The notes beneath the pieces were generated by a model. The model was not told where the DNA came from, did no database searches, and was given only the letters and a program-made list of their open reading frames with translations. Positions 11,450 through 61,008 of a DNA stretch of 64,000 bases are shown in pieces. Positions within the stretch are counted from its first letter, which is position 1. The number at the start of each line of letters is the position of its first letter. The stretch is from Paractinoplanes durhamensis (lineage in GTDB: Bacteria > Actinomycetota > Actinomycetes > Mycobacteriales > Micromonosporaceae). The position numbers and the translations under genes are program-made. The stretch lies in contig NZ_BOML01000021.1 in assembly GCF_016862175.1 (NCBI RefSeq), forward strand, positions 62,001 to 126,000, read 5' to 3'.

Positions 11450-11599
11450 GCCCCGAACTGTAGTGGCGGCCGCCCGGCAAATCGGGCCAGACTGGCAGCA
11501 AAGTTAATTCGATCTCACCGCATCCGGATTCACACCTGGCATCTACCGGAGGCCACGGCGTAGCTTCCGTTTAGCCCCTTGCGAATGAGGAAGGACACG

Positions 11600-14500
11600 T
11601 TGACCGCGATCTTCGGAAACGCGCCGGGGTCACTCTCCGATCTGGAGGTGATCTCGCAACTCGGGCGCGGTGCGGAGACCGTGGTCTACCGGGTTCGCCG
11701 GCACGGCGGCGACTACACGCTGAAGGTGCTGACCGCCCCCGACGCGGAGAAGGCGCTGCCCGCGGTGCGCCGGGAGGCCGCGCTGCTCGGACATGTCGGG
11801 CATCCGCTGCTGCCGCGGATCTTCGAGGTCGGTTCGAGCACGGCCGGGCCCTACCTGATCCTGGAATACATCGACGGGCTCCCGCTCTCCGACACGCTGC
11901 GCCGCGGCCCGTTCGACGAGAGCGCCGCGGTCCGGCTCGCGATCGACCTGACCGGACCCCTCGCCGCCGCGCACCGGGCCGGCATCGTGCACCGCGACGT
12001 CAAGCCGGACAACGTGATCGTGGAGCCGGCCGGCACCGGCCGGCTGATCGACTTCGGGCTCGCCGCCCGCGGCGGGGTCCACGACGACCGGGTCGCCGGC
12101 ACGCTGCTCTACTGCGCCCCCGAGCAGACCGGCATGCTGAAACGACCGGTCGACGGCCGCTCCGATCTGTACGCACTGGGCGTCCTGCTCTACGAGTGCG
12201 TCACCGGCCAGGTGCCCTACCAGGCGAAGGACGCGGGCGAGCTGATCCGCCAGCACGCCACCGCGCCGATCCCGGACGCCCGCACACGGTGCCCGGGCCT
12301 CTCGCCGACGATGGCCGGGATCATCGCGACGCTGATGGCCAAGGACCCGGACGACCGCTACCAGAGCGGCGAGAGCCTGCTCAGCGACCTGGGCCGGCTG
12401 GCCGCCGACCCGGGCGCCACCCTGGTGATAACGGCCGACCAGGGTGCCGTGCAGCCGATCGGCCAGCAGCGGCTGGTCGGCCGCGACCAGGAAGTGATCA
12501 CCCTGGCGCACCGCTGGCTGCGGGCCCGGGACGGGGCCGGCGGCGCGGTCGTGGTCGAGGGCCCGGCCGGCGCCGGCAAGACCCGGCTGGTCAAGGAGCT
12601 GACCAACGCGGTCGCCTCGGACGGCGACCTCACCCTCTACGGCAAGTGCGTGCCCGACGATCCGGTGCCGCTCGCCCCGCTGCGCGGTGCGGTCGAGCGC
12701 TACCTGCGGACCGTGAAGCGCCTGCCGCCGCCCGATCGGGACCGCGCGGTCGAGCAGCTGCGCCGGGCCGCCGGCCGGGGCGGCCCGCTGCTGCGGACCC
12801 TGTCGCCGCTGCTGGCCGACCTGGTGCAGGCCCCCGAGATCGACGAGCTGAACCGGCACGAGCAGTTCGTCAACGCGGTCGCCGCGTTCCTCATCGGACT
12901 CGCCGACGAGTTCCAGGGTGCCGTCCTGCACATCGACGACGTGCAGTGGCTCGACGACCCGACCCGCCGGGTGCTGCAGCGGATCACCAGCCGGCTCACC
13001 GGCACCCCGCTGCTGGTGATCGCGACCAGCCGCGACGACCCGGACAGCGCGCCCGCCCTCAACCGCTTCGGCGCCGACATGGACGCCACCCTCGACACCC
13101 GGCTGCCGCTGCCGCCGCTCGACCCGGACGCGGTCCAGGAGCTGGTCACCGAGCACCTGGGCGCGGCCGAGCTGCCCGCCGGGCAGGTCGAGGAGCTGGC
13201 CCTGCGGGCCGGCGGCAACCCGTTCACCATCGGCGAGTACGTCCGGGCGGTCTTCGACGCCGGCCTGGTCACCCCGTCGTGGGGTGGCTGGCAGCTCGAC
13301 ATGGCCGGGCTGGACCGGCTCGAGCTCTCCGGCGACGCGGTCGACCTGGTGCTGCAGCGCATCGACGGCCTCGGCGCGGACAGCCGGCGGCTGCTGGTCG
13401 CCGCGGCGGCGGGCGGCCGGTCCTTCCCGACCGACCTGGTCGCGAAGGTCTGCGACATCGACCCGCGGTGGGCCCGCGGCATGCTGGCCGAGGCCGAGTC
13501 GCGCCGGCTGGTGACCGCCACCGGCGCCGACGGCTACCGCTTCCTGCACGACCGGATCCGGGAGGCGCTGCTCGTCGGCCTGGACGCCGACGCGATGCGC
13601 CGGCTGCACCAGCGCATCGCCGAGGTGATGGAGGCGGCCGCCCCCGACGACCCCCGCTTCGTCTACGCGATCGCCCGGCACTACGCCCGCGGCGAGACCG
13701 ACCGCCGGCCGCAGCGCGTCTACCTCAGCGGGTTCGCCGCCGGCCGGCTGGCCCTGGCCGATCAGGCCCCGGCCGAGGCCTGCGAGTTCCTCGAGGTGGC
13801 GGCGCGCGCGGCCCAGTCGGCCGGGGTCAACCCGCCGGCCGCGTTCTTCCTCACCCGGGGCATCAGCTGCGCCCGCTCCGGCCGTTTCGGCGAGGCCCTG
13901 CGCCACCTGGACGACGCGCTGCGCGGCGAACCGGACCGGCTGCGCCGCGCCGAGATCCGGGCGCAGACCGCGATGGTCCACAACAGCGCGTGGAACCCGG
14001 ACCGGGCGTTCGACGCCGTCCGCCTCGGCCTCGCCGAGCTGGGCGCGCCGCTGCCGCGCGGCCGGGTCGGGATGGTGCTGAGCACGCTGGTGTCGCTGGT
14101 GACCGGCCTGATCGTCGGCCGCACCCACCTGGGCTTCGGCACCGCCCGCGGCCGCGCCCGGGACCGCTACCGCCTGCAGGCCGTCCTCTGCGACATAGCC
14201 ACGTTCGCGCTGTCGATGCGGATGCGCCGGGCGATGCGCGCGACGATGAGCCTGCGCGCCCTCTACCCGATCAACCGGCTCGGGCCGGGCCGCGAATACG
14301 CCCAGCACATGGCTGGTCTCGGGGTGATCGCCGACGTGGCCGGCCGGGCGAAACTCGCGAACCATCTCTTCGACCGGGCCTACGCGGTGGCCGGCGACAT
14401 CGGCGACCCGCAGCTGGTCGCCTACGTCGAGTGGAAGCGCGGCGCGGGCAGCCACCTCAGCGGCCGCGACGACGAGAGCCAGGTGTGGAGCCGGGTCCTC

Positions 14501-16879
14501 ATCGAGCACGAGCGGTGGCTGGAGCTCGGCGACTACCTGACCGGCGTGTCCACCGTGTGCATGCAGTACTTCAAGCGGGGCTGCACCGCCGAGGCCGAGG
14601 CGTGGTACCAGCGGGCCCGCGCCCGGCTCGGCCCGGGCGCCGAGGCGGAGGGGGCCGCGATCGGCGCGGTCGGGGTCGTCATCGCCGCCCAGCGGGGCCG
14701 GACCGAGGAGGCGACCGCCCGGATCGAGGCGCTGCGCCGGTTCCTGCGGGCCAACCCGGAGAACCCGATGCAGCTGATCAACCTGTACGGCGCGCAGATG
14801 GTCGCCCTGGTCGAGCAGAGCGAGTTCGGCGAGCCGTTCGAGCGGCTCGCCACCGAGTTCGCGGCGCTCGGCCTGGACGCCGCGTCGATGGTCCCCGAGC
14901 AGCGCATCTACTACGTCTTCGAGGCGCTCGGCCGGCTCGCCCGGTGCCGGGCCACGCACCGCGGCCTGGACGCCGCCGAGGCCGCGATCACCGCGCTGGG
15001 GAAGATGGCCGACACCAAGCCGCTGCGCGCGTTCCACCTGGTGACCCGGGCCGACCTCGAGGTGCTCCAGGGGCGGGCGGCGGACGCGATCCGCACCCTG
15101 GCCGGCGTCGACGCCGAGCTGGTGCCGCTGGACGCGCCGCTGATCGCCTACGAGTCGGCCCGGGTGCACGCCCGCGCCCTGGAGGCGCTGGACCAGCCGG
15201 CCGCCGCCGGCCACCAGGCCAAACTCGCCCAGATGATCGCCGTCGAGCAGCAGTGGCCGCAGCGGATCCGGTGGGTCACCGACGAGTTCCGGGTCGCCCA
15301 GCACGCCTCCACCCAGCCCGGCTCGATCACGTTCACCACCAGCGACCCGATCCTGCCCCGGCCCGAGCCGGTGAGCCCGGCCGGCGGCGCCGACCGCTAC
15401 CAGCGCCGCCTCGAAGCGTTGCAGCAGGTCAGCCTCGCGTCGGCGACGGTCCTCGACCCGAGCGCGCTGGCCCGGGTGGCGCTCGACGAGACCCTGCGCA
15501 TCCTCGGCGCCGAACGCGCCTACCTGTTCCTGCTCGATCGCGACCTCGGCCGGCTCGTGCCGCACGTCGGCCGGGACGGCCAGGGCAACGACATCCAGGA
15601 GCTGACCGGCTACAGCTCCACCCTGGTCGACCGGGTCCGGCACTCCGGCGAGCCGCTCGTGGTGACCGGCAGCGAGGAGGGCGCCGCGCTCGGCTCGCAC
15701 AGCATGCAGACCCACGGCCTGCGCAGCATCCTGATCGCCCCGCTGCAGGTCGACGGCCAGCTGCGCGGCATCGTCTACCTGGACAGCCGGGTCGCCAAGG
15801 GCGTGTTCACCGCCGACGACGTCGACATCCTGAAAGCCATCACCAACCACATCGGGGTGTCCCTGGAAACCGCCCGCGCCGCCCAGCTGGAGGTCGCGGT
15901 GCAGGCCGCCCGGCGGCAGCGCGACGTGGCCGAGACGCTGCGCGCGGCGATGGCCGACCAGAGCTCCTCGCTCGACCCGGACGAGGTGATGCACCGGCTG
16001 CTGACCAGCCTGACCCGCACCCTCGGCGCCGACTCGGCGGTCCTGGTCACCCGGTCCGGCAACGACCGGCTGGAGGTCGCCGCCGCCTACGGGACGACCG
16101 CGCCGGTCGGTGCGCAGCTGCCGTCGGTACCGGCCGTCCTGCTCGACCTGACCGGCCCGCGGGCGCGGACGGTCTTCCCCGGCGACCGGGCGCCGTTCGG
16201 CGGGCTGCTCGGCGCCCCGCGCTGCTGGTGGGCGATCCAGGTGGCGCAGCGGGGCGAGCCGTTCGGCTTCCTGCTGGTCGGGGCGGACGGCGAGGGCGTG
16301 ATGACCGAGGCGCAGATCCAGATCGCCGCCGCGATCGCCGATCAGGGCATGACGGCGTACGAAAATGCTCGTCTCTTCAGCCAGGTGCGCGAGATGGCCA
16401 CCATGGACGGGCTCACCGGTCTCTACAACCGCAACCACTTCTTCGCCGAGGCGGGCCGCCAGGTGAGCCTGGCCCGGCAGTACGGGCAGCCGGTCGCCGC
16501 CATCATGGTCGACATCGACCACTTCAAACGCATCAACGACACGTACGGCCACCCGGTCGGCGACGAGGTGATCCGGATCGTGGCCGCCCGGCTGCGCGAC
16601 GCGCTCGGCGAGGGCGACGTGCTGGGCCGCTACGGCGGCGAGGAGTTCGCCGTGGTCACCGTGCAGATGCCGGCCGTCGACCTGGCCGAGCGGCTGCACA
16701 GCCTGGTCTCCGGCGAGCAGGTGCCGACCGCGGTGGGCCCGTTGCCGGTGACGATCAGCGTCGGCCTGGCCCACGGCGACGGCACCGAACCCGACCTGCG
16801 GCAGCTGCTCAGCCGCGCCGACCGGGCCCTCTACCAGGCCAAGCACAGCGGCCGCGACCGCGTCTGCGTCGCGCCGTAG
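11600..16879 (+). CDS. Ser/Thr protein kinase - AAA ATPase - helical repeat - GAF - GGDEF fusion protein
   Basis: A cytoplasmic protein of about 1759 residues. An N-terminal kinase (about 10-270) keeps the glycine loop LGRGAETVV, the LKVL lysine, HRDVKPDN, DFG and APE. A STAND/AAA-type ATPase follows (about 290-550), with Walker A EGPAGAGKT and Walker B-like HIDDVQWLDD. A long TPR-like helical region comes next (about 640-1190), then two GAF-like sensory domains (about 1275-1425 and 1455-1585). The C-terminal diguanylate cyclase has GGEEF at about 1679. The inhibitory RxxD site is not conserved (GEGD at that place), so product inhibition may be absent. The start is placed at TTG 11600 because AGGAAGG precedes it at 11588; ATG 11585 is the alternative. 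Its input ligands are unknown. Confidence 0.94.
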   Translation: MTAIFGNAPGSLSDLEVISQLGRGAETVVYRVRRHGGDYTLKVLTAPDAEKALPAVRREAALLGHVGHPLLPRIFEVGSSTAGPYLILEYIDGLPLSDTLRRGPFDESAAVRLAIDLTGPLAAAHRAGIVHRDVKPDNVIVEPAGTGRLIDFGLAARGGVHDDRVAGTLLYCAPEQTGMLKRPVDGRSDLYALGVLLYECVTGQVPYQAKDAGELIRQHATAPIPDARTRCPGLSPTMAGIIATLMAKDPDDRYQSGESLLSDLGRLAADPGATLVITADQGAVQPIGQQRLVGRDQEVITLAHRWLRARDGAGGAVVVEGPAGAGKTRLVKELTNAVASDGDLTLYGKCVPDDPVPLAPLRGAVERYLRTVKRLPPPDRDRAVEQLRRAAGRGGPLLRTLSPLLADLVQAPEIDELNRHEQFVNAVAAFLIGLADEFQGAVLHIDDVQWLDDPTRRVLQRITSRLTGTPLLVIATSRDDPDSAPALNRFGADMDATLDTRLPLPPLDPDAVQELVTEHLGAAELPAGQVEELALRAGGNPFTIGEYVRAVFDAGLVTPSWGGWQLDMAGLDRLELSGDAVDLVLQRIDGLGADSRRLLVAAAAGGRSFPTDLVAKVCDIDPRWARGMLAEAESRRLVTATGADGYRFLHDRIREALLVGLDADAMRRLHQRIAEVMEAAAPDDPRFVYAIARHYARGETDRRPQRVYLSGFAAGRLALADQAPAEACEFLEVAARAAQSAGVNPPAAFFLTRGISCARSGRFGEALRHLDDALRGEPDRLRRAEIRAQTAMVHNSAWNPDRAFDAVRLGLAELGAPLPRGRVGMVLSTLVSLVTGLIVGRTHLGFGTARGRARDRYRLQAVLCDIATFALSMRMRRAMRATMSLRALYPINRLGPGREYAQHMAGLGVIADVAGRAKLANHLFDRAYAVAGDIGDPQLVAYVEWKRGAGSHLSGRDDESQVWSRVLIEHERWLELGDYLTGVSTVCMQYFKRGCTAEAEAWYQRARARLGPGAEAEGAAIGAVGVVIAAQRGRTEEATARIEALRRFLRANPENPMQLINLYGAQMVALVEQSEFGEPFERLATEFAALGLDAASMVPEQRIYYVFEALGRLARCRATHRGLDAAEAAITALGKMADTKPLRAFHLVTRADLEVLQGRAADAIRTLAGVDAELVPLDAPLIAYESARVHARALEALDQPAAAGHQAKLAQMIAVEQQWPQRIRWVTDEFRVAQHASTQPGSITFTTSDPILPRPEPVSPAGGADRYQRRLEALQQVSLASATVLDPSALARVALDETLRILGAERAYLFLLDRDLGRLVPHVGRDGQGNDIQELTGYSSTLVDRVRHSGEPLVVTGSEEGAALGSHSMQTHGLRSILIAPLQVDGQLRGIVYLDSRVAKGVFTADDVDILKAITNHIGVSLETARAAQLEVAVQAARRQRDVAETLRAAMADQSSSLDPDEVMHRLLTSLTRTLGADSAVLVTRSGNDRLEVAAAYGTTAPVGAQLPSVPAVLLDLTGPRARTVFPGDRAPFGGLLGAPRCWWAIQVAQRGEPFGFLLVGADGEGVMTEAQIQIAAAIADQGMTAYENARLFSQVREMATMDGLTGLYNRNHFFAEAGRQVSLARQYGQPVAAIMVDIDHFKRINDTYGHPVGDEVIRIVAARLRDALGEGDVLGRYGGEEFAVVTVQMPAVDLAERLHSLVSGEQVPTAVGPLPVTISVGLAHGDGTEPDLRQLLSRADRALYQAKHSGRDRVCVAP

Positions 16880-43716: not shown

Positions 43717-46011
43717 TTAGAGTGGGCCTGTTTCCGCAGCCTTCATCGTCTCGGCACGCAGCAGATCGGCGAGCGCCGCCGCGGTCAGCGGGCGGGCGTA
43801 GTGGAAGCCCTGACCGCTGCGGTAACCGAGCAGGGTCAGCTCGGTCGCCTGGGCCGGCACCTCGATGCCCTCGGCCACGGTGTCCAGGTTCAGGGCCTGG
43901 GCGAGCCGGATGACCGCCTCGGCGACGGCCGAACCCTGCGGCTCGCCGTTGAGCTCGGAGACGAAGCAGCGGTCCAGCTTGAGGATGTCGATCGGCAGCC
44001 GGGTCAGGTAGCGCAGCGACGAGTAGCCGGTGCCGAAGTCGTCGACGGCGATCCGGATGTCGTGCCGGCGCAGCACCTCCAGGACGCCGGCCCCCTCGCT
44101 CTCGTGCACCAGGGCGCTCTCGGTCAACTCCAGCACCAGGTCGTGCGGGTCGAGGCCGGCGTCGGCGAGGGTGGCGAGCACGGCGTCGGTCAGGCCGGGG
44201 CTCTTCAACTGGTACGGCGAGAGGTTCACGCTGACGTACAGCCGCCGGCCGAACTCCTGCTGCCACTGCCGGGTCTGCCGGGTGGCCTGCTCGAGCACCC
44301 ACAGGCCGAGGCCGTCGATCGCGCCGGTCCGCTCGGCGGCGGCGATGAAGGTGTCCGGGAAGAGCGTGCCGCGCTCCGGGTGCTCCCAGCGGACCAGGGC
44401 CTCCACCCCGGTGATCTCGCCGGTGGCCAGCGTGACGATCGGCTGGAAGGCGAGCCGCAGCTGCCCGGCCGCGGCGGCGGCGAGCATCTCGGCGTCGAAC
44501 GTCTCGGCCGCGCCGGTCGCCGACTCCAGGCCCGGGTGCCACTGCTCGGGGCGGCCGGTGCCGGCCCGCTTGGCGGCGTACATGGCCATGTCGGCGCGGT
44601 GCCGCACGGTGGCGACGTCGGTCTCCGGGTCGGTCATCACCACGCCGATGCTGCAGCGGATCGGGGTGGGCAGCCCGGCGACGTCGCGCGGCTCGGCGGC
44701 CCGGTCGAGGATGCGCTGGGCCACGGCGAGGGCCTGCTCGATATCGCCGGGCCGGTCGAGCAGGACGACGAACTCGTCGCCGCCGACCCGGGCGGCCACG
44801 TCGCTGCCGCGTACGGTCGCCCGCAGCACCTCGGCGAACGCCACCAGCATGGCGTCGCCGGCCTCGTGACCGCGGGTGTCGTTGATCTTCTTGAAGCCGT
44901 CCAGGTCGATCACCAGGACCGCGGACGCGGCGCCGGTCTCGTGGTGGCGCCGGACCGCGGCCTCCAGCGCCGGGGCCACCGACAGCCGGTTGGCCAGGCC
45001 GGTCAGGTGGTCGCGGACGACCAGGCCGTGGTTCTCCCGCATCGCCACGATCTGGCGCAGCACGACCGCGCCGGTCATCACGATCACCCCGGCGGCCAGG
45101 CCGCCCCACGGGTAGAACGCGTGTTCCCGGGCGGCCGCGAACAGCAGCATCACGTAGCCGGCGAGCAGGGCGGCGTACGGCAAATAGGCGATGCCGGAGC
45201 GTCCGCGCTGCTCCGTGCCGGTGTCGTCGCTGCGTCGCGTGATCTGCATGGCGGCGGCCATCGCCATGATCAGATCGGCGCCGTTGAGGGCCACCGAGAG
45301 TGCCGTGGGCCAGGTCATCGGGCCCTGGTCGACGAGGTACGCGTAGATGATGTCGCCGGCGAGGTAGGTGAGCAGGCCGGCCAGGAACAGCGGCAGCGGG
45401 CCGCGCCAGGACGTGACGCCGTTGCGCAGCAGCAGCGCGCACACCCCGAAGATGAGGGCGAGGTCGGTGACCGGGAAGCCGATCACGACCATGGAGTCCG
45501 GGCCGATGTGGCCGTCCTGCAGGGCCGGGCCGAGCTGGAAATACCAGGAGACGACGAAACCGCCGCCGATGACGGTGGTGAGGTCGGCGATGAACCGGGT
45601 CCGCTGCCGGCCGGTCAGCGTCTTCATCGGGAAGGCCAGGATGCCGGCGAGCACCAGCGGCGCCCACACCAGCCGGCCGATCAGCGCCGCCATGATCCCG
45701 GACAGCGGCAGCTCACCGCCGTGCATGGCGGCCATCACGACCGCGTACGGCTGGGGCAGCAGCATCACGGTGAACGCGACGGCGAACCAGCGCCACGGGC
45801 GGCGTGCGGCGGGCGACCCCCGGAACGCGGCCACCCAGCACAGGGCGGTGGTGACCACCGAGGTGATCAGGTACGACCGGAAGAACTCGGCGTTGGCCAG
45901 CGCACCCTGCGGGTTGGTCACGATCCGCGCACCGACGGTGGCGGCCGCGGCCAGTCCGATGATGATCAGCAGCGCGTGCGACCGCAGCCACCTGCCCACC
46001 TCAGCCACCAC
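43717..46011 (-). CDS. Membrane GGDEF-EAL protein
   Basis: A 764-residue c-di-GMP enzyme. Eight or so membrane helices (about 1-310) precede a GGDEF domain with DLDGFKKINDTRGH and ARVGGDEF; the inhibitory site RGSD lies five residues before GGDEF and is intact. The EAL domain has GVEALVRWEHP, ELTESALVHE, DDFGTGYSSL and KLDRCFV. Both halves keep their catalytic residues, so synthesis and breakdown are possible and the net direction is not predictable. The start at GTG 46011 is set by GGAGGAGG; longer forms lack a better site. It follows the next GGDEF-EAL gene by about 75 bp in the same direction. Confidence 0.94.
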   Translation of the reverse strand: MVAEVGRWLRSHALLIIIGLAAAATVGARIVTNPQGALANAEFFRSYLITSVVTTALCWVAAFRGSPAARRPWRWFAVAFTVMLLPQPYAVVMAAMHGGELPLSGIMAALIGRLVWAPLVLAGILAFPMKTLTGRQRTRFIADLTTVIGGGFVVSWYFQLGPALQDGHIGPDSMVVIGFPVTDLALIFGVCALLLRNGVTSWRGPLPLFLAGLLTYLAGDIIYAYLVDQGPMTWPTALSVALNGADLIMAMAAAMQITRRSDDTGTEQRGRSGIAYLPYAALLAGYVMLLFAAAREHAFYPWGGLAAGVIVMTGAVVLRQIVAMRENHGLVVRDHLTGLANRLSVAPALEAAVRRHHETGAASAVLVIDLDGFKKINDTRGHEAGDAMLVAFAEVLRATVRGSDVAARVGGDEFVVLLDRPGDIEQALAVAQRILDRAAEPRDVAGLPTPIRCSIGVVMTDPETDVATVRHRADMAMYAAKRAGTGRPEQWHPGLESATGAAETFDAEMLAAAAAGQLRLAFQPIVTLATGEITGVEALVRWEHPERGTLFPDTFIAAAERTGAIDGLGLWVLEQATRQTRQWQQEFGRRLYVSVNLSPYQLKSPGLTDAVLATLADAGLDPHDLVLELTESALVHESEGAGVLEVLRRHDIRIAVDDFGTGYSSLRYLTRLPIDILKLDRCFVSELNGEPQGSAVAEAVIRLAQALNLDTVAEGIEVPAQATELTLLGYRSGQGFHYARPLTAAALADLLRAETMKAAETGPL

Positions 46012-46085
46012 GTTGCCTCCTCCGCTGCTTGGTCCTCTCACCATCGGTCACTCTCCGAACCGGCGCCCGGAATCGGGCTAATTTG

Positions 46086-48278
46086 CTAGGCCACCGCGAG
46101 TGCGACCTCGCGGAACGGGTCCTCGACCGGCCGGCCGAAGTGGTAGCCCTGCGCGAAGCGGTAGCCGAGGCGGTGCAGCTCGGCCGCCTGCTCGGCGGTC
46201 TCCACGCCCTCGGCCACGGCGGCCAGGTGCAGGCCGTCGGCGACCTGGATCAGCGCCGTCGCGATCACCGCGTGCTCGCCGGCCATCGTCACCGTGTCGA
46301 CGAACTGCTTGTCGACCTTGAGGGCGTCGACCGGCAGGGTGCGCAGCAGACCGAGCGACGAGTGCCCGGTGCCGAAGTCGTCCAGCGAGATCTTCACCCC
46401 GAGGTCGCGCAGCGCCTTGACCGTCTCGACCGCCTGGCCGCCACCGAAGACCGCGGTCTCGGTGATCTCCACGGTCAGATTCGACGAGATCATGCCGGTC
46501 GAGGCGAGAACCGAGGCGACCGTACGGGCGAAGTCCGGCTCGGCGAGCTGGCGGGCGGAGACGTTGACCGCCACGTGCAGCGGTGCCCGGCCGGCGAGGG
46601 TGTCCCGCCACCACACGGCCTGCTCGCAGGCCCGGCGCAGGATCCACTCGCCCAGCTCGACGATCAGCCCGTTCTCCTCGGCGACCGGGATGAAGTCGAC
46701 CGGGCTGACGAAGCCCCGGGTCGGGTGCTGCCAGCGGATCAGCGTCTCGACCCCGACGATGTCGCCGGCCGGCAGCGTGACGATCGGCTGGTAGACCAGC
46801 CGGAACTGCTCGCTGTCGATGGCCAGCCGGATGTCGGCGCCCAGTCGCGCCTTCTCCCCGGCCCGGTCGTCCAGGTCCTCGGTGAAGCGCAGCCAGGGGC
46901 GCCCGGCCGCCTTGGCGGCGTACATCGCCACGTCGGCGCGGCGCAGCAGCTCACCCGGGTCGGTGGCGCCGGGCGCGGACGCGATCCCGATGCACCCGCT
47001 GATCAGCAGTTCCTGGCCGCCGGCCGGGATCGGGGCGCGCAACGCGGCCACCAGGCGGGCCGCCACCGAGTCGCCGGTCTCGGCCGACGCGTCCGGGATC
47101 AGCACCGCGAATTCGTCGCCACCCATCCGGGCCACCAGGTCGGTGCCGCGCAGCGCGGCGGTGAAGCGCCCGGCCACCGCGGCCAGCAGCTGGTCGCCGA
47201 CGGCGTGACCGAAGCGGTCGTTGACCGCCTTGAACCCGGTCAGGTCGAGCAGGGCGACCTGCGGCTCGCCGTCGGCCACCGCCTCGGCCAGGCGCTGCTC
47301 GAACTGCCGGCGGTTGGCCAGCCCGGTCAGGTCGTCGCGCAGCGCGAGCTGCTCCATCTGGCCGGCCTGCCGCCGCAGCCGGACCACGAAACCGGTCATC
47401 CGGGCGGCCACCAGCAGCACCAGCACGGCGGCGGCGCAGCCGATCTCGGCCCAGCCGTCGGCGTGGCCGACCCGGGCGTCCTGCACGAAGATCATCGTGG
47501 GGATCAGCAGCATGCACGAGACAAGGATCGTGATCCGGCCGTACCGCGGCGATCCGGTGACGTCGTCCTCCCCGGGCACGTCGACGCGCGGAAGGATCGC
47601 GGCCGCGCCGAACAGCACGTTGGCCAGCATCCAGCCGATCGCGACCAGCCCTTCCGGCAGGCCCAGGCCGGGCAGGACGAACGTGACGATGTCCGACCCG
47701 ACCAGGCACAGCACCCCGCCGACCACGGCGGTCACCGCGGTCCGGCGCACGCCGGCCCCGATCAGCAGGCGGGCGACCAGGGCGATCAGCACGATGTCGA
47801 AGGTGGGGTAGGCGATGGCGAGGAGGGTCGGGTCGGTCATCGGCTCGATGACGAACAGCCACCACACCAGGCCGAGGCCGCCGGCGATCACCGCGGCGTC
47901 CAGGTAACCGGCCCGGTCCAGGCGTAACCGGCGGTGCGCCAGCCGGAGCGCGCCCGCGACCAGCAGCGGGTAGGCCAACAGGTAGAACACGTCGGCCGGC
48001 GACTGCCACGGGGAGCGGTGCAGCACCTGCCGGTAGATCTCGTAGGTCACGTCGCCGAGCAGCCGGGACGCCGCGGCGGCGGCGATCAGCGACCAGCCGA
48101 GCCGGCTCCCGCCGCCCTGCACGGCCCGCACCACCAGGGCGATCACGACCGCCAGGGCGAGCGCGTCGTAGACGTACGCCGCGGCCGGCGTGCCGATCGG
48201 CACGAACTGGTAGCCCGCGACCACGCCGAGGCCGACGGTGCACCACGCGGCGAGCACGTCCTGCCTGATCCTGGTCAT
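46086..48278 (-). CDS. Membrane GGDEF-EAL protein
   Basis: A 730-residue c-di-GMP enzyme with an N-terminal membrane part of about nine helices containing SPADVFYLLAYPLLVAGALR. The GGDEF domain keeps LLDLTGFKAVNDRFGH, the inhibitory RGTD and RMGGDEF. The EAL domain has the variant VETLIRWQHP, EITETAVF, DDFGTGHSSL, KVDKQFV and AEGVET, and looks competent. It is a close paralogue of the protein at 49164, with the same membrane architecture. The ATG lacks a clear ribosome site. It probably forms an operon with the following GGDEF-EAL gene. Confidence 0.94.
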   Translation of the reverse strand: MTRIRQDVLAAWCTVGLGVVAGYQFVPIGTPAAAYVYDALALAVVIALVVRAVQGGGSRLGWSLIAAAAASRLLGDVTYEIYRQVLHRSPWQSPADVFYLLAYPLLVAGALRLAHRRLRLDRAGYLDAAVIAGGLGLVWWLFVIEPMTDPTLLAIAYPTFDIVLIALVARLLIGAGVRRTAVTAVVGGVLCLVGSDIVTFVLPGLGLPEGLVAIGWMLANVLFGAAAILPRVDVPGEDDVTGSPRYGRITILVSCMLLIPTMIFVQDARVGHADGWAEIGCAAAVLVLLVAARMTGFVVRLRRQAGQMEQLALRDDLTGLANRRQFEQRLAEAVADGEPQVALLDLTGFKAVNDRFGHAVGDQLLAAVAGRFTAALRGTDLVARMGGDEFAVLIPDASAETGDSVAARLVAALRAPIPAGGQELLISGCIGIASAPGATDPGELLRRADVAMYAAKAAGRPWLRFTEDLDDRAGEKARLGADIRLAIDSEQFRLVYQPIVTLPAGDIVGVETLIRWQHPTRGFVSPVDFIPVAEENGLIVELGEWILRRACEQAVWWRDTLAGRAPLHVAVNVSARQLAEPDFARTVASVLASTGMISSNLTVEITETAVFGGGQAVETVKALRDLGVKISLDDFGTGHSSLGLLRTLPVDALKVDKQFVDTVTMAGEHAVIATALIQVADGLHLAAVAEGVETAEQAAELHRLGYRFAQGYHFGRPVEDPFREVALAVA

Positions 48279-49163: not shown

Positions 49164-51347
49164 GTGCGGAAAGCGGGCTGGTGGGGCGGATGGATCGCGG
49201 TCGGGTTGCTGGCGACCGTGATCCACTACCTGCTGCCCGGCGACGGTCTCCGGTCCGATCTCGTCTACGACGCCACCGGGCTGGCGGCCGGCCTGCTGAT
49301 CCTGGTCGCGGTGCGGCTGCACCGCCCGGCCCGCCCGGCCATGTGGTATCTGTTCGCGGCCGGCCAGATCCTGTCGGTCACCGGCGACTTCACCTGGGAG
49401 TACTACGAGTACGTACGGCACGAGGAGCCGTACCCGTCGTTCGCGGACGTCTTCTACGTCGCCTCCTATCTGCCGCTGATCGCCGGGCTGTTCCTGCTGG
49501 TGCGGCGCGGGCGCGGGAACGGCGGCAGCCTGCTCGACGCGGCCATGGTGGCGACCGGGCTGGGCCTGGCCATGTGGGTGTTCGTGCTGCATCCGGTGGC
49601 GGCCGGCGAGTCGGCGTCGACCCTGGAACGCGTGATCAGCACCGCCTACCCGGCCCTGGACGCCCTGCTGCTGACGATGCTGGCCGGGCTCTTCGCCGAT
49701 CCGGCGTCGCGCACCCCGAGCACCCGCCTCCTGGGGCTGGCCGCGATGCTGCTGCTGGTCTCCGACGTGGCCTTCTCGGTGGCGTCGCTGTACTGGGGAT
49801 ACGACGGTCACCTGCTGGACGGCGGCTGGATGATGGCCTACGTCGTCTGGGCGGCGGCCGCCCTGCACCCGTCGATGTCGGCGGCGGCCGCCCCGGAACG
49901 CCCGGAGAGCGCGAACCGGGTCAGCCCGCGGCGGCTCGCCGTGCTGGGCGGCTGCTCGGTGCTGGCGCCGAGCCTGCTGTTCCTGCCCCGGATCGGCGCG
50001 GACCGGCTGGACCGGGCGGTCGTCGCCGCCGCGGCCGTGCTCCTGTTCCTGCTCGGCCTGGCCCGGATGGCCGGCTTCGTCAGCAAGATCCGCCGGCTGG
50101 CGATGCAGGACGACCTGACCGGCCTGAGCAACCGCCGGCACTTCGCCGAGACGCTGGGTGCCGCCCTGGCCGCCGGCCGGGCCGAGGTCGTCCTGCTCGG
50201 GCTGAGCAACTTCAAGGCGCTCAACGACGAGGTCGGCCAGGTGATCGGCGACCGTCTGCTGGTCCTGTTCGCCGGCCGGCTGCGCGCGGCCGTGGGGGAG
50301 GGAGCCCTGGTCGCCCGGGTCAGCGGGGACGAGTTCGCGGTGCTGCTGACGGAGTCCGGCGACATGGACCGGATCGTGGCCACCGTCCACGACCCGATCC
50401 GGGTGGGTGACCACGAGATCCTGCTCGTCGCCGGGGCCGGGGTCGGCGACGGCACCGGCACCTCCGACCCGGCCGAGGTGCTGCGCCGGGCCGGGGTGGC
50501 GATGTATGCGGCGAAGCGGACCGGCGAGCCGTACCGGAGCTGGAGCCCGGCCATGGACGAGCGGGCCGGCCAGAACGCCCGGCTGGGCGCGCAGATGCGG
50601 GCCGGGCTGGACGACGGCCAGTTCCGGGTGGTCTACCAGCCGATCGTGGCGGTGCCGGAGCGCCGGGTGGTGGCGGTGGAGGCGCTGGTGCGGTGGGACC
50701 ACCCGGACCGGGGCCCGATCAGCCCCGCCCATTTCATCCCGGTCGCCGAGCAGAACGGGCTCATCGTCGAGCTGGGCGAATGGATCCTGGTCACCGCCTG
50801 CCGGCAACTGGCCCGGTGGCGGGCCGAGCTGGGCGATCGTGCGCCGGACAAGGTGAGCGTCAACGCGTCGGCCCGGCAGCTCGCCCGGCCCGGCTTCGCC
50901 GCGACGGTCACCCGGGTGCTGGCCGACGCCGGCCTGCCGGCCCGGTGCCTGACCATCGAGGTGACCGAGACCGCGGTCTTCGAGGGCGGTCAGGCCATCA
51001 CCACGCTGCACGAGCTGCGGGCGCTGGGGGTGCGGATCGCGCTCGACGACTTCGGCACCGGGCACTCGTCGCTCCGCCTGCTGCAGACCGTGCCGGTGGA
51101 CATCCTCAAGGTCGACAAGTTGTTCGTCGACCACATCACCGAGGCCGGCCGGCCGACCGTGATCGCCCGGTCGCTGATCCAGATCAGCGACGGGCTGGGC
51201 CTGACCGCGGTGGCCGAGGGCGTGGAGACCGCCGCACAGGCCGAGGCGCTGTACCGCCTGGGCTACCGGCTGCTGCAGGGCTACCATTTTGGCCGCCCGG
51301 TCGCTGAACCCGACTTCGACCTGACCGGCGTGCGGGCCGCCGCCTGA
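49164..51347 (+). CDS. Membrane GGDEF-EAL protein with degenerate GGDEF half
   Basis: A 727-residue protein with about nine membrane helices and the family motif PSFADVFYVASYLPLIAGLF. The GGDEF domain is defective: the metal-ligand Asp is lost (LGLSNFKALND), the signature is SGDEF, and the RxxD site reads GEGA. The EAL domain is complete: VEALVRWDHP, EVTETAVF, DDFGTGHSSL, KVDKLFV, AEGVET. It should therefore act as a c-di-GMP phosphodiesterase with a regulatory, perhaps GTP-binding, GGDEF domain. The start is GTG with GGAA just upstream. Clear paralogue of the gene at 46086. Confidence 0.93.
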   Translation: MRKAGWWGGWIAVGLLATVIHYLLPGDGLRSDLVYDATGLAAGLLILVAVRLHRPARPAMWYLFAAGQILSVTGDFTWEYYEYVRHEEPYPSFADVFYVASYLPLIAGLFLLVRRGRGNGGSLLDAAMVATGLGLAMWVFVLHPVAAGESASTLERVISTAYPALDALLLTMLAGLFADPASRTPSTRLLGLAAMLLLVSDVAFSVASLYWGYDGHLLDGGWMMAYVVWAAAALHPSMSAAAAPERPESANRVSPRRLAVLGGCSVLAPSLLFLPRIGADRLDRAVVAAAAVLLFLLGLARMAGFVSKIRRLAMQDDLTGLSNRRHFAETLGAALAAGRAEVVLLGLSNFKALNDEVGQVIGDRLLVLFAGRLRAAVGEGALVARVSGDEFAVLLTESGDMDRIVATVHDPIRVGDHEILLVAGAGVGDGTGTSDPAEVLRRAGVAMYAAKRTGEPYRSWSPAMDERAGQNARLGAQMRAGLDDGQFRVVYQPIVAVPERRVVAVEALVRWDHPDRGPISPAHFIPVAEQNGLIVELGEWILVTACRQLARWRAELGDRAPDKVSVNASARQLARPGFAATVTRVLADAGLPARCLTIEVTETAVFEGGQAITTLHELRALGVRIALDDFGTGHSSLRLLQTVPVDILKVDKLFVDHITEAGRPTVIARSLIQISDGLGLTAVAEGVETAAQAEALYRLGYRLLQGYHFGRPVAEPDFDLTGVRAAA

Positions 51348-55868: not shown

Positions 55869-56663
55869 GAGCTCTACGCCGTTTGATGCCAGGGCGTCGC
55901 GCAGGTCGGGCGGGGGTGCGGCGTCGGTGATCAGGTAGTCGGCGGCGCCCAGCTCGGAGACCTGGGCGAACAGGCGGCGGCCGAACTTCGACGAGTCGGC
56001 CAGGATGGCCACCCTTGCGGCTCGGGAGATCATCTCCTGCATCATGGCGGCCTCGGCCAGGTTGCTCGTCGTGTAGCCCGCGTCGGCGGACACCGCTCCC
56101 ACGCCGATCAGCGCCAGGTCGCAGCTGATGTCCAGCTCGGCGCCGGTGTTGCCGCGGAAGCTGACCGGGCCGACGGTGGCCAGGGTCAGGGCGCGCACCG
56201 CGCCGCCGAAGACGTAGATGTCGCGGACCGAGGTCGGCGGCAGCGCGCCCGGCACCAGCAGGTTGTTGGTCGCCACCGTGAGGTCGCGGTGCTGGCCGAG
56301 GTTGCGGGCGAGGGCGAGGATCGTCGTCCCGCCGTTGATCATGATGGTCGAGCCGTCCTGGACCAGGGCCGCGGCCAGCGCCGCGATCTTCTCCTTCTCC
56401 TGCTCCTGCACGGTGAGCCGCTGGTCGACGGCGCGGTCGGTGCGGGAGACGGTGGAGAGGCTGACGGCGCCGCCGTAGGTGCGGACGAGGCTGCCCTCGG
56501 CGGCCAGCTGATCGAGATCGCGTCGAACGGTGTCGATCGAGACGCCGAAGCGTTCGGCCAGCTCGCCGACCGTGACCTGACCGGTCTCGGCGACATACGC
56601 CGCCAGCTGGGCTTTGCGGCCGGCCGGCAGGTGACGCTGCCGCTCGTTGCTGTCGACGCTCAC
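55848..56663 (-). CDS. DeoR family transcriptional regulator
   Basis: A 271-residue regulator. The N-terminal winged helix-turn-helix is VTVGELAERFGVSIDTVRRD then LVRTYGGAVS, a classic DeoR signature. The C-terminal sugar-phosphate sensor reads STIMINGGTTILALARNL, then DLALIGVGAVSADAGYTTSN and VAILADSSKFGRRLF. It should repress the adjoining sugar operon (56960-63152) and release it on binding a phosphosugar of that pathway. The start is GTG 56663 with GAGGGGGG upstream; a longer frame to 56747 would run through the promoter region. Confidence 0.94.
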   Translation of the reverse strand: MSVDSNERQRHLPAGRKAQLAAYVAETGQVTVGELAERFGVSIDTVRRDLDQLAAEGSLVRTYGGAVSLSTVSRTDRAVDQRLTVQEQEKEKIAALAAALVQDGSTIMINGGTTILALARNLGQHRDLTVATNNLLVPGALPPTSVRDIYVFGGAVRALTLATVGPVSFRGNTGAELDISCDLALIGVGAVSADAGYTTSNLAEAAMMQEMISRAARVAILADSSKFGRRLFAQVSELGAADYLITDAAPPPDLRDALASNGVELLTPGQS

Positions 56664-56685
56664 TGATCCCCCCTCGTCAGTGCGG

Positions 56686-56931
56686 CAGTATGCCACAAAT
56701 GCGTGTCCATTGAGCACACCGCTGCGTAGAGCTGCGGAGAGCCGCAAGGTTGGGCACGACCAGCCAAAAGACCACGCTGACGCGCCAATGCCCAGCTCGG
56801 CGGGTGGCTCCGAGCTGCCTTATTCTGCTCCATGGCGCAACAGTATGCCGTACTCCGCAGTTTTCTGCTGTTCTTCTCTTGTCTTCATCTGTAACACGCT
56901 GCTAACGTGGCGCCAACACGGCAGAGAACAG
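56686..56931 (+). promoter_or_regulatory. Control region of the sugar operon
   Basis: TTGTCT (56879-56884), an 18-nt spacer and TAACGT (56903-56908) form a good promoter. CTGTTCT (56868-56874) and AGAACAG (56925-56931) are inverted arms bracketing it. CAGTATGCC occurs twice, at 56686-56694 beside the DeoR start and at 56841-56849 before the operon promoter, each within a small palindrome. Both pairs could bind DeoR and support looping. The leader ends with AAGGAG at 56949. Confidence 0.5.
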
Positions 56932-56959
56932 AAAGATCTCTATATAGAAGGAGTCCGCC

Positions 56960-58249
56960 ATGGCGGTTTCTGCATCCCGGCTGAAGCGAGTAATAGGGGC
57001 GGTGACGGCGGCCAGCCTGGTCGCGTTCGTCGCGGCGTGTGGCGGCGGCGACTCGGATGACTCGGCTTCGGGCGGAGATGTGACGCTCGAGTTCGCCCAG
57101 TGGTGGGGCGCGGAGCTTCCGGCCGGCGATTTCGACAAGATCATTAACGACTTCACGACGGCAAACCCGAATATCAAGATCAAGCTGATCTCGGCGCCGT
57201 ACGCTTCGACCAAGCAGCAGCTGATCACCGGCGCGGCCTCGAAGACCCTCCCGGACGTGGTGGGCCTCGACGGCGCCTGGGTCAACGACTTCGCCAAGCA
57301 GGGCGCGATCGCCGACATGTCCAAGCTGATGACCGACGCGAACTATGACTCCAGCCAGCTGGCCAGCCAGATCCAGCTCGAGGGCAAGACGTACATGATC
57401 CCGGTGGTCAACTTCGTCTACCCGCTGTTCGTCAACAAGGACCTGCTGACCAAGGCCGGCGTCGCCAAGACGCCGAGCACGCGCACCGAGTTCCTCGACG
57501 CGGCCAAGAAGATCAGCGCCACCGGCGGCAACGTGAAGGGCTGGGCGCTCCCGCTCGACACCGCCGTCCCCAACGGCATCCAGAACGACGTGATGTCCTG
57601 GCTCTGGGCCTCCGGCGGCAGCATGCTGGCCGACGGCAAGCCGGCGCTGCAGACCGACGCGGTCAAGAGCACCGTCGAGTACGTCAAGAGCCTCAACGAC
57701 GCGAACGTCATCGCCCCCGGTTCCCTCACCATGAAGGAGCAGGACAAGGTCGAGAAGTTCACCCAGGGCCAGGTCGGCATGATGATCGACTCGCTCGCGC
57801 ACGTCAGCCTGATCAAGAAGAACAAGCCGGACCTGAAGTTCGAGATCGCGGCCATCCCGGCCGAGGACAGCTACACCGGCAAGCGCGGTATCCCGTACGC
57901 GTCCTGGGGCATCGGCATCTCGAACTCCACCAAGCACAAGGCCGAGGCGTTCAAGTTCGTCTCCTACCTGATGAGCGCGGAGACCAACGCGAAGCTCGCC
58001 ACGATCGCCAACGGCTTCACCGGCAACAAGAACGCCGAGCCCGACTTCAGCAACAGCGACCCGCTGTTCAAGCAGGCGTTCGACATCTACAAGGAGGGCA
58101 CCCCGGCCAACGAGTTCGTCGGCCTGCCCAAGTCCGAGGACCTCATGCGCAGCTTCGACGAGCAGCTCCAGCTCGTGCTGACCGGCAAGTCGAGCGTCGA
58201 TGACGCCCTCGCCAAGGCGCAGGAGTCCTGGTCCTCGGTGATCGGTTAG
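56960..58249 (+). CDS. Sugar ABC transporter substrate-binding lipoprotein
   Basis: A 429-residue family-1 solute-binding lipoprotein. The signal peptide ends at a lipobox VAAC (Cys near residue 27), then a Gly/Ser/Asp-rich linker. The body has LEFAQWWGAELPAGDFDKII, then TLPDVVGLDGAWVNDFAKQG, and a late GIPYASWGIGIS, all usual for carbohydrate binders. The ATG is preceded by AAGGAG. It is the first gene of a six-gene unit with two permeases and phosphosugar enzymes. A hairpin separates it from the permeases, which favours higher binding-protein expression. The sugar is probably mannose-, fructose- or tagatose-related. Confidence 0.95.
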   Translation: MAVSASRLKRVIGAVTAASLVAFVAACGGGDSDDSASGGDVTLEFAQWWGAELPAGDFDKIINDFTTANPNIKIKLISAPYASTKQQLITGAASKTLPDVVGLDGAWVNDFAKQGAIADMSKLMTDANYDSSQLASQIQLEGKTYMIPVVNFVYPLFVNKDLLTKAGVAKTPSTRTEFLDAAKKISATGGNVKGWALPLDTAVPNGIQNDVMSWLWASGGSMLADGKPALQTDAVKSTVEYVKSLNDANVIAPGSLTMKEQDKVEKFTQGQVGMMIDSLAHVSLIKKNKPDLKFEIAAIPAEDSYTGKRGIPYASWGIGISNSTKHKAEAFKFVSYLMSAETNAKLATIANGFTGNKNAEPDFSNSDPLFKQAFDIYKEGTPANEFVGLPKSEDLMRSFDEQLQLVLTGKSSVDDALAKAQESWSSVIG

Positions 58250-58256
58250 TCCGCCC

Positions 58257-58299
58257 GGGCGCCGTGCCGGCCCCCTGACATAAAGCCGGTACGGCGCCC
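58257..58299 (+). promoter_or_regulatory. Intercistronic hairpin
   Basis: GGGCGCCGTGCCGG (58257-58270) pairs with CCGGTACGGCGCCC (58286-58299), with one G-U pair, around a 15-nt loop. Lying between the binding-protein and permease genes with no U tract, it is likely a partial terminator or mRNA stabiliser that sets the expression ratio. Confidence 0.6.
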
Positions 58300-58316
58300 G
58301 ACCTAGGAGACAAGCC

Positions 58317-59246
58317 ATGACAATGCTCGCAACGAAGACCGCCGCGCCGGTCGAACCGGCGGCCCCCAAACGAAAGTCCCTGGCCCGGCGCCTGGTCCCG
58401 TACGGCTACCTGTCCCCCACGATCGTCCTGATCGTGGTCCTGATGGTGGTCCCCATCGTCATGGTGATCAGCTATTCGTTCCGGGACAACGTGATCGTCC
58501 AGGACAACTCGGTGTTCGCCGGGTTCGCCAACTACACCAAGGTGCTCACCGATCCGGACTTCCTGGCCGCGATCAAGAACACCGCCATCTTCATCACCGT
58601 CAGCATGGTGGCCCACCTGGTCCTCGGCCTGGCGTTCGCGATGATGCTCAACACCGAGCTGCTCGGCGGGGTCACCAAGGCCATCTTCCGGATCGTCTAC
58701 ATCCTGCCGTGGCTGTTCACGATCGCGGTCATCGCGGTCATCTGGCGGCTGCTGCTCGACCCGGCCGGCGTCATCAACTACGTGCTGCACTCGATCGGCC
58801 TGATCAACGAGGGCGTGAACTGGCTCGGTGATCCGGGCAAGGCGCTGTGGGCGGTCACGTTCATCAACATCTGGTCGGGCTACCCGTTCTTCATGATCAG
58901 CCTGCTGGCCGGTCTGCAGGGCATTCCCAAGGACCTGTACGAAGCGGCCGCGGTCGACGGCACCAACTGGTTCCAGCGGTTCCGCCACGTGACACTGCCC
59001 CAGCTCCGGCCAGTGATCATCAGCATGGCGGTGCTCGACCTGATCTGGACGTCGCAGCAGTTCGCGCTGATCTGGATGACGACCGGCGGCGGCCCGCTGA
59101 ACACCACCGAGATGCTCAGCACCTACACCTACAAGCAGGCATTCAGCGAGTACGAGTTCTCGACCGCGTCCGCCGCGGCCGTGATCGTCCTGCTGCTGAC
59201 GATGATCCTGGCCTTCTTCTACGTGCGTCAGCAAAGGGAGCGGTGA
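58317..59246 (+). CDS. Sugar ABC transporter permease, MalF-like
   Basis: A 309-residue inner-membrane protein with six helices, opening YGYLSPTIVLIVVLMVVPIV. The ATPase-docking loop is LYEAAAVDGTNWFQRFRHVT with the conserved Glu-Ala-Ala and Gly. A GGAGACAA ribosome site precedes the ATG. It is followed by the second permease with a 4-bp overlap. No ATPase gene is in the operon, so a shared MsiK-type ATPase encoded elsewhere is expected, as is usual in actinomycetes. Confidence 0.95.
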   Translation: MTMLATKTAAPVEPAAPKRKSLARRLVPYGYLSPTIVLIVVLMVVPIVMVISYSFRDNVIVQDNSVFAGFANYTKVLTDPDFLAAIKNTAIFITVSMVAHLVLGLAFAMMLNTELLGGVTKAIFRIVYILPWLFTIAVIAVIWRLLLDPAGVINYVLHSIGLINEGVNWLGDPGKALWAVTFINIWSGYPFFMISLLAGLQGIPKDLYEAAAVDGTNWFQRFRHVTLPQLRPVIISMAVLDLIWTSQQFALIWMTTGGGPLNTTEMLSTYTYKQAFSEYEFSTASAAAVIVLLLTMILAFFYVRQQRER

Positions 59247-60097
59247 TCGCCGTGGCCGTGGCCGTCAAGACCAAGCGCACGCTCGCCAAATCCGGCGTCC
59301 TTGCCGGGCTGATCATCGGTGGCCTGTTCGCCGGCCTGCCGGTGCTGTGGATGCTCTCCACGTCGTTCAAGGGCAACGGGGACGTCTTCCAGAACCCGCC
59401 GAAGCTGATCACCTCGACGTTCTCGTTCGACGCGTACTCCGAAATCCTCGGTAACGGGACCCAGCTGCGCTACTTCCTGAACAGCTACATCGTCGCGATC
59501 GCGGTGACCCTGCTGACGCTGCTGGTGGCGCTGCTGGCCGGCTTCGCGTTCAGCCGCTTCAACTTCCCGTTCCAGAAGACCATCAACGCGGTGATCGTCA
59601 GCGTGCAGGCGGTGCCACCGATCACGCTCGTCATCCCGTACTTCGGCCTGGTCGTCGGTCTTGGCCTCTACAACACCTACGCCGGCCTGATCCTCACGCA
59701 CATGGTGTTCACGCTCCCGTACGCGATCATCATGATCACCGCGTATCTGAACACGCTCCCGAAGGAGCTGGACGAGTCCGTCAAGGTCGACGGCGGCACC
59801 GGCTGGACCGCACTGTGGCGGATCCTCGTGCCGATCTCGGTGCCCGGCCTGATCGCGGTCGGGGTCTACACGTTCATGATCTCGTGGAACGAATACCTGT
59901 TCGCTCTCACGCTGACCCGCACCGATGACATGCGCACGGTGCCGATCGGCATTCAGATGCTCATGGGCCAGCACTCGTACGAGTGGAACCAGATGATGGC
60001 CATGAGCATTCTCGGCTCCATTCCCGTTCTCGTCCTCTTCCTGCTGTTCCAGCGGCGATTCATCGGCGGACTGACCGCCGGCGCCGTCAAGGCATGA
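59243..60097 (+). CDS. Sugar ABC transporter permease, MalG-like
   Basis: A 284-residue permease with six helices. GLPVLWMLSTSFKGNGDVFQ is the typical MalG opening and LPKELDESVKVDGGTGWTAL the docking loop (with DES in place of EAA). ISWNEYLFALTLTRTDDMRT follows near the end. The GTG start overlaps the upstream stop (GTGA) and has AAAGGGAG before it; a much longer upstream frame overlaps the first permease and is rejected. It pairs with that permease to form the channel. Confidence 0.95.
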   Translation: MIAVAVAVKTKRTLAKSGVLAGLIIGGLFAGLPVLWMLSTSFKGNGDVFQNPPKLITSTFSFDAYSEILGNGTQLRYFLNSYIVAIAVTLLTLLVALLAGFAFSRFNFPFQKTINAVIVSVQAVPPITLVIPYFGLVVGLGLYNTYAGLILTHMVFTLPYAIIMITAYLNTLPKELDESVKVDGGTGWTALWRILVPISVPGLIAVGVYTFMISWNEYLFALTLTRTDDMRTVPIGIQMLMGQHSYEWNQMMAMSILGSIPVLVLFLLFQRRFIGGLTAGAVKA

Positions 60098-60140
60098 CCC
60101 CCTCGCACTGCATTACCGAACCAAAGGGAGAAACACCGAA

Positions 60141-61007
60141 ATGCTGACGACCGGCAAGGCGATCCTGGATGTCGCCAATGAGCACAGCTTCGCCGTGCCC
60201 GCCTTCAACATCAGCGACTGGGCGATGTTCAAGGGAATCGTGGAGATCAGCGAGGAGACGAACGCTCCGCTGATGGTGGCGATCCACCCGGACGAGGTCA
60301 AGCACATCGGCCCCGAGATGATCAAGGGCATCATCGAGCGGGCGCACCGGTCGAGCATCCCGATCGCGATCCACTGGGACCACGGCGCCACCTACGCGCA
60401 GATGCTCGAAGCGTTCCAGTACGGGTTCACCTCGGTCATGCTCGACGCCTCGACCAAGCCGTTCGACGAGAACGTGGCGATCTCCAAGCGCGTCGTCGAC
60501 TCGGCGCACGTGCTCGGCATCTCGGTCGAGGCCGAGCTCGGCACGATCGGCGCGAACGACAGTTACGCCGAGTCCGAGGGCACCGCGACGATCATCTATA
60601 CCGACCCGGACGACGCGGTCACCTTCGTCGAGCAGACGGGCGTCGACTCGCTCGCCGTCGCGATCGGGACCTACCACGGCTTCTTCCCGAAGAACCTGAA
60701 GCCGGAGCTCAAGCTCGACCTGCTCAAGGAGATCAAGAGCCGGGTGCAGATCCCGCTGGTGCTGCACGGCGGCTCCAACAACCCGGACGACGAAATCCGC
60801 GAGGCCGCGCGAATCGGCATTAACAAAATCAACATCTCGACCGACATCAAGGTGGCCTACCACAACAAGATGCGCGAGGTGCTCGGCACCGACGAGAAGG
60901 TCCGCGAGCCCAACGCCATCCAGCCCGCCTGCATCGAGGCCATGAAGATCGTCGCCGCCCAGAAGATCGAGCTCTTCGGCGCCGACGGCAAGGGCTCGCT
61001 GTTCTGA
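60141..61007 (+). CDS. Class II ketose-bisphosphate aldolase
   Basis: A 288-residue zinc-dependent aldolase of the fructose/tagatose-bisphosphate family. Zn-site and active-site motifs are IAIHWDHGATYAQML, ISVEAELGTIGAND, AVAIGTYHGFFPKN and PLVLHGGSNNPDDEIR, followed by INKINISTDIKVAY. It cleaves a ketohexose bisphosphate to DHAP and glyceraldehyde phosphate. AAAGGGAG precedes the ATG. Its place beside a sugar-phosphate kinase and a phosphomannose isomerase suggests it handles the product of this pathway and not housekeeping glycolysis. It could prefer tagatose- or another epimeric bisphosphate. Confidence 0.94.
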   Translation: MLTTGKAILDVANEHSFAVPAFNISDWAMFKGIVEISEETNAPLMVAIHPDEVKHIGPEMIKGIIERAHRSSIPIAIHWDHGATYAQMLEAFQYGFTSVMLDASTKPFDENVAISKRVVDSAHVLGISVEAELGTIGANDSYAESEGTATIIYTDPDDAVTFVEQTGVDSLAVAIGTYHGFFPKNLKPELKLDLLKEIKSRVQIPLVLHGGSNNPDDEIREAARIGINKINISTDIKVAYHNKMREVLGTDEKVREPNAIQPACIEAMKIVAAQKIELFGADGKGSLF

Positions 61008-61008
61008 G

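Follow-up and report, generated by a model that had tools for sequence, protein, structure and literature searches.

Fusions of a Ser/Thr kinase, an ATPase and a histidine kinase in one polypeptide are well known, an example being WP_181727154.1 (L239), annotated as 'Trifunctional serine/threonine-protein kinase/ATP-binding protein/sensor histidine kinase'. This trifunctional type contains Pkinase, AAA_16, a long middle part and GAF in the same order as the 1759-residue protein described here, which is encoded in a 64,000-nucleotide stretch of Paractinoplanes durhamensis DNA (the window) and is referred to below as the window protein. The matched scaffold stretches are about 27-30% identical, but the trifunctional type has a histidine-kinase output and its kinase motifs are decayed in the five examples that were aligned. 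Kinase-GAF-HisKA proteins are represented by HstK/cbSTKIII of cyanobacteria (PMC2176072). The combination of kinase, TPR and GGDEF is not new, as an 1826-residue Ser/Thr kinase with six TPR repeats and a C-terminal GGDEF domain was reported from Clostridium thermocellum in 2005 (PMC1262709). Compared by description only, it resembles the window protein in its N-terminal kinase, TPR, C-terminal GGDEF and length, but it comes from a different phylum and the passage describing it names neither an ATPase nor a GAF domain.

Two other systems share the central part of the window protein. MalT and PknK are grouped with the STAND proteins, whose activation is by inducer-dependent multimerization (PMC4381067), and PknK of Mycobacterium tuberculosis, again compared by description, has both a kinase and a MalT-like domain (PMC4381067, PMC1262709). 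The MalT protein of E. coli is similar to the window protein in fold (Z 20.9). To our knowledge, neither PknK nor MalT contains GAF or GGDEF. The TOMM kinase/cyclase fusion (TIGR03903) likewise combines a kinase and an ATPase with a nucleotide cyclase in a single polypeptide, although its cyclase belongs to another class. The TIGR03903 model matches residues 291-727 of the window protein with a whole-protein E-value of 2.8e-55, and its 187.8 bits are far below the cut-off of 705.75. At the C-terminal end, PadC (5llw) and Dcsbis (4zmu) share the sensor, long helix and GGDEF arrangement but lack the kinase/STAND part. Among the papers listed in searches of the open-licence PMC literature, there was no experimental study of a protein that combines a Ser/Thr kinase with a diguanylate cyclase, nor any mention by name of the family to which the window protein belongs (family A), which is widespread in Actinoplanes and its relatives and little described.

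Domain layout and predicted folds of the window protein

The gene (11600..16879, + strand) is complete in a single frame and its relatives align with it nearly end to end. TTG at 11600 is the likeliest start because a Shine-Dalgarno-like AGGAAGG (11588..11594, + strand), read from the sequence, sits 5 nt upstream; the in-frame alternatives are ATG at 11585 and TTG at 11579. A search for consensus promoters and terminators came up empty, a result that is uninformative in high-GC DNA. The preliminary description proposed a kinase, a STAND-type ATPase, TPR repeats, two GAF domains and a cyclase in one frame, and on this Pfam and the structure models agree, with Pkinase, AAA_16, GAF and GGDEF all well above the Pfam cut-off. 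All features given below are on the + strand.

The Ser/Thr kinase domain (residues 16-256, 11645..12367; Pfam E 3.6e-36) has its best PDB matches in PknB chains and contains an intact glycine loop, K42, HRD (131-133), N138, DFG (151-153) and APE. It is followed by the AAA_16/STAND NTPase (residues 291-474, 12470..13021; Pfam E 2.2e-23). For the STAND part, the alignment identifies the P-loop or Walker A sequence GPAGAGKT (residues 321-328, 12560..12583), a Walker B DD, F-x-H-D and GNP, the last of which we take to be the STAND marker (GxP type, winged-helix module). The TPR-like superhelix (about residues 660-1235, 13577..15304) is seen in the structure model, and the Pfam TPR models reach sub-threshold scores only. 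GAF1 (residues 1285-1423, 15452..15868) is supported by Pfam GAF, by the model and by strong conservation in family A. A 50-residue helix (residues 1405-1454, 15812..15961), which overlaps the end of the Pfam GAF match, leads in the model to the poorly conserved GAF2 (about residues 1460-1562, 15977..16285), identified by the model and by an extra GAF_2/GAF_3 stretch, as GAF_2 and GAF_3 each pass the Pfam cut-off in two stretches of the protein. A further modeled helix (residues 1570-1602, 16307..16405) connects GAF2 to the GGDEF domain (residues 1600-1754, 16397..16861; Pfam E 1.5e-43), which has the A-site GGEEF (residues 1679-1683, 16634..16648) and the metal-binding Asp. No HisKA or HATPase match was found at the C-terminus with Pfam up to an E-value of 1. 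The kinase, Walker and GGEEF motifs are thus intact on alignment, as had been claimed, and by motif criteria the window protein is a Hanks-type kinase, a STAND NTPase and a diguanylate cyclase in one chain, with activities that are predicted.

Two parts of the protein were modeled, residues 275-1270 with 12 sequences and residues 1262-1759 with 11. The former gave a STAND NTPase and a helical-repeat superhelix (pLDDT 83.3, pTM 0.77) that resembles the STAND-TPR protein 6mfv (VIA Z 21.2), MalT (8bob, 20.9), MalT domain III (1hz4, 20.8), a Rap protein (20.6, TPR part only) and Apaf-1 (19.5), as well as plant NLRs. According to a note of the search tool, helical repeats alone reach a Z of about 13, and so the matches that extend across the nucleotide-binding module count most. 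The C-terminal model (pLDDT 82.7, pTM 0.41) consists of GAF, the 50-residue helix, GAF, a helix and GGDEF, and the low pTM makes the mutual arrangement of these domains unsure. It resembles PadC, Dcsbis and PleD with whole-model TM-scores of about 0.3, low values that are expected of a flexible chain. These helix-linked cyclases work as pairs of GGDEF domains. The linker between GAF1 and GAF2 is helical in the model and highly conserved (the 17 orthologs are on average 94% identical to the window protein in this helix), and the S-helix class comprises a helix of about 40 residues with a published sequence signature. In a survey of 2006 (PMC1592074, in the passage cited), animal receptor cyclases were the only proteins in which the signaling helix lay downstream of a kinase domain of the Ser/Thr type.

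Spread and conservation of family A

The host genome (10.5 Mb) contains four full-length copies of the kinase-STAND-TPR-GAF-GGDEF fusion, and relatives that are 37-80% identical to the window protein can be aligned with almost all of it, which makes the architecture more than chance. Relatives over most of the length come from Actinoplanes, Paractinoplanes, Planomonospora, Jidongwangia, a Micromonosporaceae MAG and an Acidimicrobiaceae MAG. With the ATPase-TPR part as query, at least 66 of the 67 genomes in the genus sample (a genus group tied to Actinoplanes, Paractinoplanes and Jidongwangia by 500-residue stretches identical to loci of these names) were matched at 1e-20, many further matches being to the ATPase only. 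The same query matched 27 of 150 genomes and 7 of 44 genera of the family sample at 1e-50, 55 of 200 genomes of the order sample at 1e-20 (with long matches only in the host genome and five others), and 4 of 396 genomes of the phylum sample at 1e-35, including the host, where one of the other three was full length (L238). Loci were fetched for 140 of the 143 listed places in other genomes. Two contig-edge rows (G721) and three short matches (G301, G290, G110) were left unfetched, as were genus rows weaker than about 1e-70 with the exception of L200 (1.9e-51).

Kinase, ATPase and GGDEF occur within one frame in 134 of these 140 places and, in at least one copy, in 62 of the 67 genus genomes. 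G045 should be counted in addition to these 62, as it has GGEEF in its frame that BLAST missed; the frames are split in G023 and G030, and among the matches listed G018 had none and G052 only ones of ATPase length. Among the copies fetched, 39 genus genomes have one, 17 have two, two have four and four have five. A one-off fusion is ruled out by the four copies in the host and by the 62 genomes, and the rarity implied by the preliminary description did not survive the same counts. A GGDEF profile built here identified the domain in 144 of the 146 family A rows, which include the window gene and fragments. Of the remaining two, L121 is interrupted ahead of the domain, whereas L195 (1029-6050, - strand) ends in HisKA-HATPase-receiver, a histidine kinase and receiver in place of GAF2-GGDEF, on a scaffold that is closer to family A than to either group B (see below) or the outside histidine-kinase types. 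Relatives that are divided between frames or interrupted by a stop (L121, L129, L199) could reflect decay or sequencing error. Judged by its predicted functions, family A is a conserved lineage of STAND receptors in which a canonical Ser/Thr kinase forms one end and a diguanylate cyclase the other.

The kinase catalytic and GGEEF columns are among the most conserved of family A (K42 0.97, D133 1.0, N138 0.99, D151 0.99; GGEEF 0.97-0.99). In the active-site table of 154 rows, which includes five duplicate genes and four group B rows, the HRD Asp is present in all 154, the DFG Asp in 153, the β3 Lys in 149 (Arg in four) and the αC Glu in 134 (Gln in 15), DFG is kept to the letter in 134 and GG[DE]EF in 150. 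The two GAF domains differ sharply, with 39 of 123 columns conserved at 90% or more in GAF1 and four of 113 in GAF2, and for this reason GAF1 probably responds to a common signal and GAF2 to a variable one or to none. The most widespread paralog group (49 rows in 41 of the 67 genus genomes) has Arg in place of the P-loop Lys in 48 of its rows (L012 and 47 others), and its use of ATP may differ. A few other rows have further P-loop changes.

The inhibitory RxxD site is common in diguanylate cyclases and is not required. That the window cyclase lacks it was noted in the preliminary description and is borne out, as GEGD is found at this position (residues 1670-1673, 16607..16618). The history of the site was followed on a FastTree phylogeny of 145 family A rows with long branches flagged, from which five duplicates, L121, L129, L195 and L225 were left out, as was L199 from both alignment and tree. 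RxxD is missing in 52 of the 145 rows and at least 15 changes are required. It is missing in 17 of the 18 rows of the ortholog group of the window protein (the exception, L113, has RDGD) and kept in the three sister rows, in the other three copies of the host genome and in every one of the 49 rows of the most widespread paralog group. Loss of RxxD characterizes this ortholog group, but it is one loss among many. Since the site changed at least 15 times its absence says little, and it is a weak hint that the window cyclase might run without product inhibition.

Group B and the exchange of outputs

A second, separately derived set of kinase(-like)-STAND-TPR-GAF proteins is present in the Micromonosporaceae and is designated group B (L246-L295). 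Members L028, L030, L031 and L032 come from Catellatospora, Parafrankia and MAG relatives and end in GGDEF, but they align end to end through GAF with the histidine-kinase types and not with family A. In a careful tree they join, with full support, four of the five outside histidine-kinase types, the only five used in the scaffold trees; the fifth, L241, stands beside family A on a long branch. A single origin of all GGDEF-bearing scaffolds, with family A and group B as one clade, is disfavored (lnL 86.8 lower, AU p 2e-49). Because the trees separate the two groups, kinase-STAND-GAF scaffolds acquired GGDEF on more than one occasion. The group B scaffold matches 50 of the 150 family-sample genomes and 13 of the 44 genera, the host of the window being without a match, and none of 396 genomes at 1e-50 in the phylum sample, which has no positive control.

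Outputs were read in 45 group B places, 15 of them hand-picked for spread among the listed places, and proved to be GGDEF in 32 and a histidine kinase in 13. The statement in the preliminary description that kinase-STAND-GAF proteins usually end in a histidine kinase holds for the five plasmid-borne relatives that were scanned (two more lie outside that scan), but GGDEF is the commoner end in the mostly Micromonosporaceae loci analyzed here (144 of 146 in family A, 32 of 45 in group B). On a tree of 57 rows (47 from group B, five from family A and the five outside types), obtained by a short search with no bootstrap and with L241 on a long branch, the output label needs six changes, four of them forced by starred branches. 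With at least four output changes needed on this tree, the scaffold is a platform that takes exchangeable outputs. Both GGDEF and histidine-kinase outputs are dimer-dependent, and their exchange on related scaffolds (at least four changes, together with L195) suggests one shared activation step.

The kinase motifs of group B are mostly decayed, with DFE, DFA or DFD in place of DFG, which is kept in L263/L279, L290, L291 and L292. The glycine loop is absent in the five histidine-kinase types and in the three group B rows aligned; in L239 and L243 the Lys and the DFG Asp are missing too. As judged from these motifs, it is the canonical kinase that marks family A among the kinase-STAND-GAF-GGDEF scaffolds.

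Possible mechanisms and genomic context

By analogy with MalT and Apaf-1, we lean moderately toward the view that the window protein acts inside the cell as a STAND receptor with an enzyme at each end, switched by inducer-driven assembly. The STAND core would rest closed with ADP; binding of an inducer to the TPR superhelix, and perhaps also to GAF1, would enable it to bind ATP and to assemble. In the assembly the N-terminal kinases would be close enough for trans-autophosphorylation, after which they might phosphorylate their own chain or partner proteins, and the C-terminal GAF-helix-GAF-GGDEF modules would pair, turning on c-di-GMP synthesis. ATP-driven switching may not hold throughout the family, given the P-loop Arg of the most widespread paralog group and the other P-loop changes. 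A more specific version, which we put forward tentatively as one possibility among several, is that one inducer elicits two outputs at once, with STAND assembly triggering both kinase trans-phosphorylation and c-di-GMP synthesis, the kinase gating the cyclase via the GAF2/helix region, and the scaffold serving as a platform of repeatedly exchanged outputs.

How the two ends relate can be seen differently. Kinase and cyclase might simply share one sensor and signal to separate pathways with no mutual regulation, a somewhat doubtful reading with which the exchange of the output domain on a persisting scaffold agrees, as does the retention of GGDEF in group B despite a mostly decayed kinase (DFE, DFA, DFD), from which it follows that the group B cyclase needs no active kinase. 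In family A, however, kinase and GGDEF stay in one chain and both catalytic sets are kept in nearly every row, which is compatible with joint function. The same conservation, with the HRD Asp in every row of the table, the DFG Asp in 153, the Lys in 149 and every motif in the window protein, makes it unlikely that the kinase is mainly structural or nucleotide-sensing, in the manner of a pseudokinase, and that the protein amounts to a diguanylate cyclase under STAND control; what speaks for that idea is the decay seen in related scaffolds, where the glycine loop is gone in the five histidine-kinase types and three group B rows, and the imperfect motifs within the table (αC Gln in 15 of 154, β3 Arg in four, DFG to the letter in just 134).

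The resemblance of the STAND-TPR core to Apaf-1 and plant NLRs raises the question of whether the protein is an NLR-like defense or stress receptor, detecting an intruder and relaying the signal through its kinase and a cyclic dinucleotide. This is very improbable, as the listed 25 of 32 PADLOC families match just the generic kinase part and extend no further than residue 330, and family A is present in nearly every genome of the genus. Typical defense genes are not known to have such a distribution. The few relatives that are split over frames (L121, L129, L199) might suggest an assembly artifact or a chance join of neighboring genes, and the chance of this is negligible, refuted as it is by the 134 of 140 fetched places in which kinase, ATPase and GGDEF share a frame. 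Family A and its relatives constitute a natural experiment in which related scaffolds have a cyclase or histidine-kinase output, an intact or decayed kinase, RxxD or not, and a P-loop Lys or Arg.

The loci of six relatives revealed no conserved neighbor gene pointing to a substrate or pathway. The window gene is flanked by genes for NAD synthase, a PNPOx-like protein (just below the Pfam cut-off) and NUDIX, and a conserved operon was rejected when these three neighbors had no match in loci L019-L022, L024 and L026, with flanks of about 1 to 8 kb. Actinoplanes is counted as one of the organisms with the highest density of c-di-GMP enzymes (PMC10333796), and is listed, in the passage cited, as having WhiG and lacking RsiG (PMC8325347). 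Its presence in nearly every genome of the genus makes family A a concrete entry point to the use of c-di-GMP in Actinoplanes. The c-di-GMP repertoire of the host genome is very dense, with 98 GGDEF matches in 10.5 Mb (one below the cut-off and a few partial), and three GGDEF-EAL genes of the window fall within a span of 8 kb, two in tandem (43717-46044 and 46086-48278, - strand) and one on the + strand (49164-51347). Positions 56001-62000 of the window have a GC content of 0.64-0.66, compared with about 0.69-0.76 elsewhere in it, and may be an acquired stretch.
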